A stretch of 16,703 nucleotides of DNA from Solirubrobacterales bacterium (GTDB lineage Bacteria; Actinomycetota; Thermoleophilia; Solirubrobacterales; Solirubrobacteraceae), in NCBI GenBank assembly GCA_003157595.1, contig PMKB01000291.1:1-16703 (forward strand), written 5' to 3'. A program made the translations under genes and the position numbers. Under the pieces are notes generated by a model. The model worked only from the letters and a program-made list of their open reading frames with translations, had not been told where the DNA came from and did not search any database. The stretch's first letter is position 1. The number at the start of each line of letters is the position of its first letter. This document shows, piece by piece, positions 4,029 to 16,703 of the stretch.

Positions 4029-4281
4029 CGCTGCAGGCTAGTGGGTCGCCGCGAAACGTCGTGCCCACGTGGAACCTTTGGCGAAGGCGCACCGGTGCCG
4101 GGGGCGCGGATCGCGTGGCGCCGCGGGTGCCGGCGCGATCCGATCCGATCGCCGGGATACTCTGGCGCATCGGAAAACGCAAGCTGACCCGCAGGCCGAT
4201 CCTCGGTCGAGCCTTCCCCGAAGGGATCGTCTAGCCCGCCCCCGCACGGGGGCGCCGGCGCGCCGCAAGGCGGCTCGCGGC
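4029..4281. promoter_or_regulatory. Divergent promoter region and structured leader before the kelch gene
   Basis: These 253 nt lie between the divergent SRAP (-) and kelch (+) genes. Seen: a GCACCGGTGC palindrome (4089-4098); three tandem CGATC units (4136-4150) framed by the inverted repeat GCGATC/GATCGC; and a possible plus-strand -10, GATACT (4156-4161). Three successive hairpins follow: CCTTC-CCC-GAAGG (4213-4225), CGCCCCC-GCAC-GGGGGCG (4238-4255) and GCCGC-AAG-GCGGC (4262-4274), the last ending 7 nt before the ATG. An in-frame open stretch extends the kelch frame upstream to 4069, but its basic low-complexity sequence does not look like protein. Confidence 0.4.
4035..4040 (-). promoter_or_regulatory. 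Candidate -10 (TAGCCT) upstream of the SRAP gene
   Basis: On the minus strand CCCACTAGCCTGCAGCG precedes the ATC start. TAGCCT ends 6 nt before it, leaderless-promoter spacing. The TAG of this hexamer is also the in-frame stop that closes the reading frame upstream. No Shine-Dalgarno is present. Confidence 0.4.
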
Positions 4282-5370
4282 ATGAGCGACATCGATTCTG
4301 AGATGCCTCGAGCGAGACAGCGACGCGCGCCGCGCGAGCCGCGGGAGTCGCGGCTGCGCCGGCGCGCCGGCGCCGTTGCCGCCTTCCTGCTGGCTGCGCT
4401 CGCGGTCGCCGCAGTGGTGGCCTACTCGTTGCACGTGCACCTGCCGTTCGGACTGAACGCGAAGAGCCCGACGCCGGCAAAGAGCACCGGCCCGACCGGG
4501 CCCACGGGCGCCACCAAGGCGACGAGCACGCGAACCGTCTCGGTCTCGAGCCTCGGTTCGCTGAGCGCACCGGCTTCGCGCATCGCCGCCGTCCCCTACG
4601 GGACCGGCGGAGCGCTCCTGCTGGGCGGCTACGACGCCGCGGGCGCCGAGACCAACTCGATCGAGAACTTCCAGTCCGCGACGGTGACCGCCGCCGGCAC
4701 GCTGCCGGTCCCCGCGGCCTCGGCCGTCGCAGCCGTGCTCAGCCAGAACGTCTACCTGTTCGGTGGCGCGGGCTCGACGATCTATGAGCTGAGCAACGCG
4801 AGCTTCACCGACGTCGGCAGCCTCCCCGCGTCCACGGCCGATGCCGCCGTCGCCACCGTCGGCGACACCGCGTATGTGATCGGCGGCTACACCGGCGCCG
4901 CAGAGCTGAACACGATCGTCGCCTACACCCCCGGCTCGACCGCCCAGACGGTGGCGACGCTCCCGGTGACCCTGCGCTACCCCACGGCCGCGGCGTTCGA
5001 CGGTCAGGTGTACATAATCGGCGGCTCGACCGCCGGGGTCCCGAGCGCCACCGTCTACCACTTCGACCCGGCGACCAACGCCGTCGTCGCCTTCACGACG
5101 CTCCCGCGCGCACGCGATCGCGAGAGCGCGGCGACGCTCGGCGGACTGATCTACGCGATCGGCGGTGCCAACGCCCGCGGGCAGCGCTCGCGGGCGATCT
5201 ACACGATCAACCCTGCGACCAGCGGTGTGCGCCTGGCCGGCGTTCTGCCGCAGAGCCTCGCCGACACCGTCGCGGTGCCCGCCGACGGCCGGGTCCTCGT
5301 CGCCGGCGGCACGAATGAGGGCCTGGCGGCGGTCGCGACGATCTACGCGGTGACTCCGAACTCGCGATGA
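4282..5370 (+). CDS. Membrane-anchored kelch-repeat beta-propeller protein
   Basis: A 362-residue protein with a basic N-terminus (RRAPREPRESRLRRR), one membrane helix at about 29-50 (AGAVAAFLLAALAVAAVVAYSL), a Pro/Thr/Gly-rich linker including GPTGPTGAT (about 60-88), then a propeller. Six Gly-Gly doublets occur in kelch context: LLLGGYD, VYLFGGAG, AYVIGGYTG, VYIIGGSTAG, IYAIGGANA and VLVAGGTNE. This indicates six blades, outside the cell by the positive-inside rule. Propellers of this type usually bind proteins or glycans; no enzyme motif is visible. The ATG at 4282 is chosen as the last Met before the basic region and helix. Its stop overlaps the MOSC start as ATGA, so the two genes are translationally coupled. 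Confidence 0.8.
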   Translation: MSDIDSEMPRARQRRAPREPRESRLRRRAGAVAAFLLAALAVAAVVAYSLHVHLPFGLNAKSPTPAKSTGPTGPTGATKATSTRTVSVSSLGSLSAPASRIAAVPYGTGGALLLGGYDAAGAETNSIENFQSATVTAAGTLPVPAASAVAAVLSQNVYLFGGAGSTIYELSNASFTDVGSLPASTADAAVATVGDTAYVIGGYTGAAELNTIVAYTPGSTAQTVATLPVTLRYPTAAAFDGQVYIIGGSTAGVPSATVYHFDPATNAVVAFTTLPRARDRESAATLGGLIYAIGGANARGQRSRAIYTINPATSGVRLAGVLPQSLADTVAVPADGRVLVAGGTNEGLAAVATIYAVTPNSR

Positions 5371-6146
5371 GCGCGCGCGTCGTCGCGGTCACGGTCGCGC
5401 CCGTCAAGGGTCTGCGCGCCCTCGCGCGCGAGGAGGTGGAGCTCGGGGCCCGGGGCGTGCGCGAGAATCGCCGCTTCTTCCTGCTCGACGCGGACGACAG
5501 GATGGTCAACGGCAAGCGCTTCGGCGCCCTGCAGGCCGTCCTCGCCGAGTACGCCGATGCCGAGCGCACGCTCTCCCTGCGCTTCCCCGACGGCGCGGAG
5601 GTGAGCGCACGGGTCGAACCCGGCCGAAGGCTCGTCGCGCGATTCTTCTCGAGCACGATCGCCGCCATCGAGGTGCTCGGGCCATGGTCGGACGCGCTTT
5701 CGCAGCACATCGGCGCACCGCTGCGGCTGGTGGAGAGCCTCAGCGACTGGGGGGCCGTCGACCGCGGGCGCGAGGGCGCGGTGTCGCTGATCTCCTCGGC
5801 GAGCATCGAACGCCTCGCGCAGGCCGCCCAGGCAGCCCAGCCGATCGACGCGCGCCGCTTGCGGATGCTGTTCGAGATCGACGGCACCGCCGCGCACGAG
5901 GAGGATCGGTGGCTCGGGCGCCCGCTGCGAATCGGCGCGGCGCTCGTCACGCTGCGCGGGCACGTCGGCCGCTGCGTGGTGACCAAGCGCGACCCCGAAA
6001 GCGGCGTCAGCGACCTCGACACACTCAACGCGCTCGCGAGCTACCGCGGCGAGGCCGCGACGACCGAGCCGCTGGCATGCGGCGTCTACGGCACGGTGCT
6101 CCAGGCCGGAACGGTGCGGATCGGCGACGCTGTCGAGCTGATCTGA
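5367..6146 (+). CDS. MOSC domain protein (mARC/YcbX-like)
   Basis: A 259-residue protein with an N-terminal beta-barrel (VTVAPVKGLRALAREEVELGARGVRENRRFFLLD) and a C-terminal MOSC domain. Diagnostic parts: RRLRMLFEIDG...HEEDRWLGRPLRIG (164-190) and GHVGRCVVTKRDPESG with Cys203, which aligns with the Mo-ligand Cys of mARC/YcbX proteins. The ending GVYGTVLQAGTVRIGDAVEL is also typical. The family handles or carries the molybdenum cofactor and includes N-hydroxylamine reductases. No ferredoxin domain is attached. The start overlaps the kelch stop by 4 nt. A molybdenum-hydroxylase subunit lies 10 kb downstream, but a functional link is only a guess. Confidence 0.85.
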   Translation: MSARVVAVTVAPVKGLRALAREEVELGARGVRENRRFFLLDADDRMVNGKRFGALQAVLAEYADAERTLSLRFPDGAEVSARVEPGRRLVARFFSSTIAAIEVLGPWSDALSQHIGAPLRLVESLSDWGAVDRGREGAVSLISSASIERLAQAAQAAQPIDARRLRMLFEIDGTAAHEEDRWLGRPLRIGAALVTLRGHVGRCVVTKRDPESGVSDLDTLNALASYRGEAATTEPLACGVYGTVLQAGTVRIGDAVELI

Positions 6147-6159
6147 GGCAATCGTTTTT

Positions 6160-6232
6160 CGGATCGGCGCATGCGCCGATCCGCGGGACGGTGCATGCAC
6201 CGTCCCGACGGGCGGGTGCATGCACCCGCCCG
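6160..6232. repeat. Three abutting perfect 24-bp palindromes with GCATGC cores
   Basis: Palindrome 1 (6160-6183) has half-site CGGATCGGCGCA, palindrome 2 (6184-6207) CGGGACGGTGCA, and palindrome 3 (6209-6232) CGGGCGGGTGCA. Each is followed by its exact reverse complement. Centres are 24 and 25 bp apart, and only one base separates 2 from 3. The cores share GCATGC, and 2 and 3 share GGTGCATGCACC. The arms differ between units but compensate perfectly within each, so the pairing is conserved rather than the sequence. They lie between the convergent MOSC and small membrane protein genes. A TTTTT run precedes them on the plus strand. A bidirectional U-less terminator or a protein-binding array are the main options. 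Confidence 0.9.
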
Positions 6233-6249
6233 AACAGCAGACCGGCCTT

Positions 6250-6420
6250 CTAGGACCCGAAGCGTCGCTGGCGCTCGGCGCGGTAGCGCTCGTTCTGCTG
6301 GTGCTCGCCGCGAACCTGGATCGCGACGTAGACCAGGATCACGTTGACGACGACGCCGATGCCGCCGAAGGTGGCGATCAGTCCAAACGTCTCCGAGAAG
6401 GCCTTGCTGACTGCGAGCAC
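6250..6420 (-). CDS. Small single-pass membrane protein (56 aa)
   Basis: Minus-strand ORF with GTG start at 6420 and TAG stop at 6250-6252, encoding 56 residues. It begins MLAVSKAFSETFGLIATFGG, has a hydrophobic helix at about 12-35 (GLIATFGGIGVVVNVILVYVAIQV), and ends in a charged, Gln/Arg-rich tail (RGEHQQNERYRAERQRRFGS). GAGGAG sits 4 nt before the GTG, a good ribosome binding site at rather short spacing. Codon third positions are strongly G/C, as in the neighbours. It is convergent with the MOSC gene, with the triple palindrome just past its stop. Function unknown; small one-TM proteins with this layout often act as membrane-complex accessory subunits. Confidence 0.65.
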   Translation of the reverse strand: MLAVSKAFSETFGLIATFGGIGVVVNVILVYVAIQVRGEHQQNERYRAERQRRFGS

Positions 6421-6500
6421 GATGCTCCTCTGTCGCTGCGGGTCGAACGGCTGTGCGGCAGATTACCGCGTCGCGTAGCCTTCCACTCCGCCCACCTCCC

Positions 6501-6589
6501 GGAGAGGTGCCGGAGCGGTTGAACGGGCGCGACTGGAAATCGCGTGACGGGGGAAACCTCGTCCGAGGGTTCGAATCCCTCCCTCTCCG
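6501..6589 (+). tRNA. tRNA-Ser(GGA)
   Basis: An 89-nt class II tRNA. The acceptor GGAGAGG (6501-6507) pairs with CCTCTCC (6582-6588), with G as discriminator. The anticodon loop CTGGAAA gives anticodon GGA (reads UCC/UCU). A long variable arm is present (GACGGGGGAAACCTCGTC region), and the T arm is GAGGG-TTCGAAT-CCCTC. CCA is not encoded (TGC follows), so it is added after transcription. A TAGCCT hexamer at 6476-6481 could be its -10. Confidence 0.95.
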
Positions 6590-6664
6590 TGCCTCAGCGT
6601 TGCCTGCGTTCGAGCAACAGCCCGATCGGCGCCCGACGTGCCGTCGATCTGCGAACGTCGCGCC

Positions 6665-16107: not shown

Positions 16108-16703
16108 ATGCTGCTAGCTGCCACCGAGTACGTGCGCCCGGCGAGCCTCGAGGAGGCGCTCGCCGCGCTGGGGGCGACCGCGGGCGCGCGCGTGCTCGCC
16201 GGAGGCCAGACGCTGATCAACGTCCTCAAGCACCGCGCGGCCGCGGTCTCGCTGCTGGTTGACATCAGCCGCCTGGAGGAGCTGCGCTTCATCGATGTGC
16301 GGCCCGACGGATCGGTCACGATCGGGGCCGCGACCACCTACGCGCAGCTCGAGCGCTCGCTCGAGCTGCGCGCGGCGCAGCCGGTGATCGGCGAGGTCGC
16401 GGCGGGCGCCGTCGACCGCCAGGTGCGCGCCCGCGGGACGATCGGCGGGAACGCATGCTTCGCCGATCCGGCGTCCAACTACCCGCCGCTGCTGGTCGCG
16501 CTCGACGCGTCGATGGAGATCGCCGGCCCCGCCGGGCCCCGGAGCGTGCCGGCGGCGGAGTTCTTCCTCGGCCTCTTCCGGACCGCGGTCGGAGCCGGCG
16601 AGCTGCTGAGGGCGATCACGCTGCCGCCGCTCGCGGGCGCCGGCGTCGGCTACCGCTCGTTGCAGCTGGCGGCGGACTCCTGGGCGCTCGCGCGCGCGGT
16701 GGC
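16108..16703 (+). CDS. Molybdenum hydroxylase FAD-binding subunit (CoxM/xanthine-dehydrogenase type), partial
   Basis: The first 198 residues are present and the gene runs off the window. Motifs: AGGQTLINVLKHR (31-43), the FAD pyrophosphate loop, and TIGGNACFADPASNYPPLLVALDA (111-134), the second FAD motif TIGGN. This medium subunit passes electrons from the Mo/2Fe-2S subunits to FAD in xanthine dehydrogenase/CO-dehydrogenase-like enzymes. CoxS- and CoxL-type subunits would be expected next. The ATG has AGGAGGG 10 nt upstream, the best ribosome binding site in the operon, and lies 3 nt after the M24 stop. It implies that the operon's pathway includes hydroxylation of an N-heterocycle or aldehyde. 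Confidence 0.9.
   Translation, partial: MLLAATEYVRPASLEEALAALGATAGARVLAGGQTLINVLKHRAAAVSLLVDISRLEELRFIDVRPDGSVTIGAATTYAQLERSLELRAAQPVIGEVAAGAVDRQVRARGTIGGNACFADPASNYPPLLVALDASMEIAGPAGPRSVPAAEFFLGLFRTAVGAGELLRAITLPPLAGAGVGYRSLQLAADSWALARAV

Follow-up and report, generated by a model that had tools for sequence, protein, structure and literature searches.

The window, by which is meant the whole stretch of 16,703 nucleotides analysed here, is one contig (C231) of a draft genome of 2.95 Mb that is 73% complete. A gene for a MOSC-domain protein (5367..6146, plus strand) converges with a small ORF of 56 aa (6250..6420, minus strand), and a tRNA-Ser (6500-6590) lies beyond the small ORF, whose locus is conserved in three congeners (G001, G002, and G003). 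When compared with these three, the present genome is the only one in which the MOSC gene stands between a kelch-type gene and the small ORF (4069-6420). Between the facing stops, at 6146 and 6250, lies an array of three unlike 24-bp units (6160-6232), each of them a perfect palindrome with a CATG centre, which ends 13 bp from the stop codon of the MOSC gene and 17 bp from that of the small ORF. The units occupy 6160..6183, 6184..6207, and 6209..6232, the third being preceded by a 1-nt spacer at 6208, so that their centres are 24 and 25 bp apart. On the plus strand, a run of T adjoins the array on its 5' side (6155..6159) and AACAGC on its 3' side (6233..6238). The latter is the most frequent edge sequence in genome G000 (11 of 55 edges exact), where the outward array edges, both pooled, have a consensus of roughly AACAGC/AAAAGC and where T is rare at +1 to +3 (0.07, 0.00, and 0.00).

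The window has a G+C content of 70.7% and contains three palindromes of at least 24 bp, against a mean of 0.005 and a maximum of 1 in 200 first-order Markov resamples. Each unit is predicted to fold alone into a 10-bp stem with a CATG (in RNA, CAUG) loop, whether as single-stranded DNA or as RNA transcribed from either strand, and in each of these cases the folding of the window units was matched by none of 200 shuffles. No U-tract follows the hairpins on either strand and a terminator scan of the window had no match; indeed, the flanks, with T's (6155-6159) preceding the array and A's (6233-6234) following it, are the opposite of what a U-tract terminator has. At gathering score, the only Rfam match in the window is to tRNA, and the array has none. 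The first-pass annotation, made from the sequence alone, had described three perfect palindromes with unlike arms at this spacing, between convergent genes and lacking a U-tract on both strands, and all of this was reproduced. Elsewhere in the window, a second perfect inverted repeat with 15-bp arms and a 2-nt gap (16341-16372) lies within a predicted gene.

Size, centre, and pairing of the units

The properties of the unit were determined on 376 kb of host DNA, comprising the window, 30 other contigs with matches (three of them partial), and 10 arbitrary contigs. All 70 perfect palindromes of at least 24 bp in this DNA are centred on CATG and 58 of them are exactly 24 bp long, while the 10 arbitrary contigs (63 kb) contain no 24-bp palindrome. 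A census that did not presuppose the centre gave 218 CATG-centred palindromes among 223 of at least 24 bp over three data sets (70/70, 25/28, and 123/125). Furthermore, the host GCATGC sites are bimodal when the mismatches between their 12-bp arms are counted: there are none at 70 sites, one at 8, two at 3, and three or four at 8, whereas the 89 sites with five to nine mismatches form the hump expected by chance. Units of the sister genera are again 24 bp long, and the six central bases of 137 of them, gathered by their CATG centre so that this centre is presupposed, are GCATGC in 109, ACATGT in 26, and GCATGT and TCATGA in one each. The GCATGC core proposed by the first-pass annotation thus holds for most units but not as an invariant, since what the genus and its sister genera share is CATG, nearly always within GCATGC or ACATGT.

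The compensation between the arms, which had also been proposed, was borne out. An alignment of 24 arrays has 718 cells, of which 98.7% pair and 9 are unpaired; both sides change in 21 of the 30 stem pairs, 172 cells carry such changes, and one-sided (G-U) variants are absent from the 718 cells. The covariation score of these arrays is 0.642, compared with 0.166 after shuffling and at most 0.116 for slid partners. Likewise, the 2420 stem pairs of 242 units, counted after units with more than three mismatches or with N had been removed, comprise 2390 Watson-Crick pairs, 3 G-T, 4 A-C, and 23 others. What the units have in common across genera is limited to CATG and G-rich 5' arms. What is kept in the units therefore seems to be shape and size rather than the sequence letters. 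Were only the RNA of one strand under selection, G-U pairs should be admitted; they would be barred by a constraint on both strands or by template switching that rewrites one arm from the other.

The units form ordered position classes, which are seen in both orientations. Near-identical pairs of units inside one array number 0 of 263, against 16.0 in free within-genome shuffles. Selection against alike units within an array was nevertheless rejected, because the deviation loses significance in shuffles that preserve unit position (mean distance, P 0.29, 0.18, and 0.05) and only the g25 count of pairs at a distance of two or less reaches P 0.037; the ordered unit classes can explain the scarcity. 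Two other rules of arrangement were also rejected. An outer stem closing the three hairpins is contradicted by the left and right edges, which do not covary (91 of 232 matches versus 95.5 shuffled, P 0.80), and the class order is not fixed to the strand in tandem gene contexts, where arrays run along versus against in ratios of 3:5, 2:3, and 6:3.

Recurrence in the host genome and in related genera

The degenerate motif GGNNNGGYGCATGCRCCNNNCC occurs 59 times in the host draft genome and its reversed control once; slightly wider motifs gave 27 and 34 listed places in two split searches of the same genome. A tandem pattern has 48 matches there and none in the control, and high counts recur in the same array-bearing genera. 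Of 31 host arrays, 21 have three units, 8 have two, and 2 have one, with a period of 24-25 bp. A contig end or N abuts three of the eight two-unit arrays, and contig ends or N runs were seen to start at arrays at L073, L088, and L096 (contigs C35, C220, and C342) and at L140 in G003. Arrays are therefore under-counted in drafts, in which contigs break or N begins at them as if the hairpins disturbed sequencing or assembly, and for the same reason absence from a draft genome is weak evidence.

The covariance model R1 detected arrays in at least 32 of the 146 genomes of the family, belonging to 4 of its 25 genera, namely the window's own genus (all 4 of its genomes), g14 (at least 18), g25 (at least 9), and g13 (at least 1). 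Within g25 and g13 the occurrence is patchy. When 396 genomes sampled from the phylum were searched, the only R1 arrays among the candidates scored were in the window's own genome. Both counts are lower bounds, because searches over more than 40 genomes used stricter filters and scored 34 candidates per genome in the family and 12 in the phylum, and both the model and the patterns are blind to arrays with another centre. When named genomes were scanned for a single form of the tandem, eight stretches were returned, four of them from MAGs named Solirubrobacterales or Solirubrobacteraceae, one from a MAG named Actinomycetes bacterium, and three from other bacteria; the single tandem-pattern matches outside the clade are in Pollutimonas, Candidatus Oscillochloris, and Amycolatopsis (L062, L063, and L069). 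Viral contigs had no tandem-pattern match, and a further genus of the family had no palindrome of at least 24 bp in 520 kb.

A looser pattern of CATG triples was not decisive, as it gave a few background matches in many of 399 genomes of the class. With it, G298 (family f8) has 10 triples spaced by 24-25 bp, compared with 1 for the control pattern, which may reflect coding periodicity or a distant relative. In G030 (genus g7) the reversed control pattern itself, that is tandems of GTAC or CGTACG, gave 23 and 19 matches, perhaps a local repeat; a GTAC-centred sister family was rejected for this genome, since 26 sampled stretches of 20 kb, together 520 kb of a genome of about 4.7 Mb, contained none.

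Placement after genes, turnover, and copying

The fetched DNA contains 84 arrays or pieces, an array split by N or a wider gap being counted as two (e.g., L090), and 81 could be classed after three at contig edges had been set aside. The gene calls come from our own codon-score script, on which the intergenic classes and distances depend, and 40 of the places (L180-L219, among the matches listed) were picked mainly from three-unit model matches, so that their array sizes are biased. With these calls, 56 of the 81 arrays come, at one edge, to within 25 nt of a stop codon that faces them (counting cases of overlap by 1-2 nt), and divergent genes flank 10 of the 81. All three data sets show a preference for convergent over divergent gaps (P 0.0001, 0.001, and 0.011); in other genera, avoidance of divergent gaps as such is non-significant (P 0.28). 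In tandem contexts the array is nearer to the stop than to the start in 14 of 15, 6 of 7, 10 of 13, and 9 of 9 cases. Gene ends without an array carry U-tract hairpins only at the shuffled level (2/299, 1/220, and 3/205 against 2, 1, and 2). One of the arrays in divergent gaps (L213, 1-2105) precedes by only 18 nt the start of what appears to be valS, and homologous genes in G001 and G002 are also preceded by arrays.

At the window junction, the three congeners keep the small ORF and tRNA-Ser, with a kelch-type gene ending directly opposite (flanks compared by eye), and lack both the array (0 of 3) and the MOSC gene, which may have arrived together with the array in the present genome. The two observations to which the first-pass annotation had tied a recurring element thus came apart, as the array is not unique in its genome but its locus is array-free in the three congeners examined. 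Elsewhere, homologous ends carry arrays with unlike arms in both genomes, within the genus (L097/L134) and between genera (L133/L191, L099/L189, and L090/L203); because the compared loci had been chosen for arrays, such examples give no rate. The arrays of L193/L218 agree in two units, and their remaining unit shows three differing pairs, with both sides altered in every case (by eye). At L136/L102 and L096/L130 the array of one species has an array-free homologous end as its counterpart in the other.

Identical two- and three-unit arrays also occur at unrelated loci and in both orientations. Adjacent unit pairs are common to arrays at different loci in 10 of 378 array pairs, compared with 1.3 on average in 1000 shuffles, the highest of which also reached 10, and one repeated two-unit array is involved in 6 of the 10 observed pairs. 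These shared pairs, together with the ordered position classes in both orientations, suggest from sequence comparison that arrays are copied as a cassette. The flanks of the array-free homologous ends are too diverged to define the edges of an element, and no clean empty site was obtained.

Another explanation is a purely selfish mobile hairpin, without a host role, that persists after genes because insertion there is harmless and whose CATG hairpin would be recognized by a putative enzyme. The arrays between divergent genes, the patchiness within g25 and g13, the identical arrays at unrelated loci in either orientation, and the array-free window locus of the congeners all favor this explanation, which we regard as possible but rather doubtful. 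Against it, homologous gene ends bear arrays in more than one genus, a Y1 transposase (Y1_Tnp) was found in none of 17 array-bearing genomes and in one of 10 others (G178), all of these counts coming from incomplete drafts, and inspection by eye of the 12 protein families that recur most often at the fetched loci revealed no transposase.

Interpretation and relation to known elements

The arrays are a real, clade-restricted, REP-like family of triple hairpins that follows a shape-and-size rule: they recur through the genome, have units of an exact size with a CATG centre and compensated arms, are restricted to a few genera, and prefer the position after a stop codon. As for the window, the reading that we prefer, and to which we would give about an even chance, is that its array is one copy of this dispersed three-hairpin family, acting as a U-less 3'-end cluster on both strands, with arms corrected by template switching and with occasional copying. 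The likeliest role would then be that of a bidirectional hairpin cluster at transcript ends. In the transcript, each unit would form its own 10-bp stem closed by a CAUG loop; read from either strand, the cluster would terminate transcription or shield the 3' ends of mRNAs without the help of a U-tract. The two-strand constraint would hold the arms to Watson-Crick pairing, since every G-U pair on one strand leaves an A-C mismatch in its complement, and template switching during replication would copy one arm onto the other so that both sides change together; these two processes are proposed as the reason that the arms stay Watson-Crick. Finally, some putative activity would occasionally copy whole arrays to new intergenic sites in either orientation.

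Bidirectional termination had been the simplest reading of the first-pass annotation. The placement at stop codons favors a 3'-end role, but termination itself is not established, because 10 of the 81 arrays have divergent genes on their two sides and because the three congeners have the small ORF facing the kelch-type gene at the window junction with no array between them.

A bolder proposal would make the family a new mobile, self-correcting DNA element. Here, an ordered three-hairpin cassette would be recognized in single-stranded form by a putative enzyme, through the CATG loop and the 10-bp stem length rather than through sequence, and this enzyme would both copy arrays between gene ends and rewrite their arms to perfect palindromes; we consider it unlikely. 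Improbable, in our estimate, is a site on the DNA where a dimeric nucleoid, condensation, or regulatory protein binds three in-phase dyads, the cooperative site also suggested by the first-pass annotation. The near-equal spacing of 24-25 bp stands and suits such a site, as does the lack of a fixed strand order relative to transcription, but recognition of the arm sequence is unlikely because the arms differ freely while pairing is kept: the outer arm bases vary and yet pair, which duplex recognition does not need, and little besides the centre and the G-rich 5' arms is common between genera. Ordinary intrinsic terminators that evolved separately for each gene and are alike only through high G+C are very improbable, since their proximity to stop codons and the description of tandem U-less hairpins there (in the parts consulted of PMC8355165) are outweighed by the CATG centre, the exact 24-bp size, the repeated arm vocabulary, and the lack of such palindromes in the 63 kb of arbitrary host contigs and in the 520 kb of the other genus.

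Under the preferred reading of a dispersed 3'-end hairpin family, the arrays may show how a clade with no detected excess of U-tract terminators ends its transcripts. In addition, sequence-based repeat finders may miss arrays of a family that is defined by shape, length, and a four-base centre. The two-sided arm changes, with almost no one-sided intermediates, make the arrays a natural test bed for the perfecting of palindromes in bacterial chromosomes, and template switching is known to turn imperfect inverted repeats into more perfect ones (PMC7202029, in the part consulted). The open-licence literature, in the portions consulted (including PMC13155455, PMC3733652, and PMC12306157), yielded no earlier description for this clade.

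Among known systems, REP, BIME, and REPIN elements come to mind first. As described in the sections consulted, they are short palindromes scattered through the genome, which for the most part lie downstream of coding sequence and between genes that are convergent or unidirectional; REP elements are often paired with unlike units, and compensatory changes are reported in REPIN spacers (PMC3733652; PMC3116915). Perfect palindromes also occur among REPs (PMC8266576, in part). The present arrays resemble REPs in being short palindromes in many dispersed intergenic copies, but differ from the GTAG and CGTC superfamilies, as neither tag was found when the four nucleotides immediately 5' of 164 array edges were read on both strands (GTGG was found twice), and from the GTAG group in that the 17 array-bearing drafts lack a RAYT (Y1_Tnp). 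They also keep a CATG centre and a 24-bp size, unlike REP, BIME, and REPIN elements, while arm sequence is not conserved. Of the REP-like mobile palindrome family put forward by the first-pass annotation, genome-wide recurrence therefore survives and membership of REP does not.

The nearest functional parallel is a proposed type of terminator made of U-less hairpin clusters, with two or more adjacent hairpins, often at most 20 nt from the stop codon (PMC8355165). The present arrays, too, are adjacent hairpins soon after a stop codon and have no U-tract, but the clusters, as far as the consulted part of that source goes, are not described with a common size, loop, or copied vocabulary. From U-tract intrinsic terminators, the arrays differ by having no 3' U-tract. 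Double-hairpin elements are mobile tandem short hairpins of mitochondria. Mitochondrial hairpin elements (RHE) are likewise mobile tandem short hairpins in intergenic DNA, and in the sponge mitochondrial elements, according to the sections consulted, stems are conserved and loops vary (PMC2800124), whereas in the present arrays the stems vary and the CATG centre is fixed.
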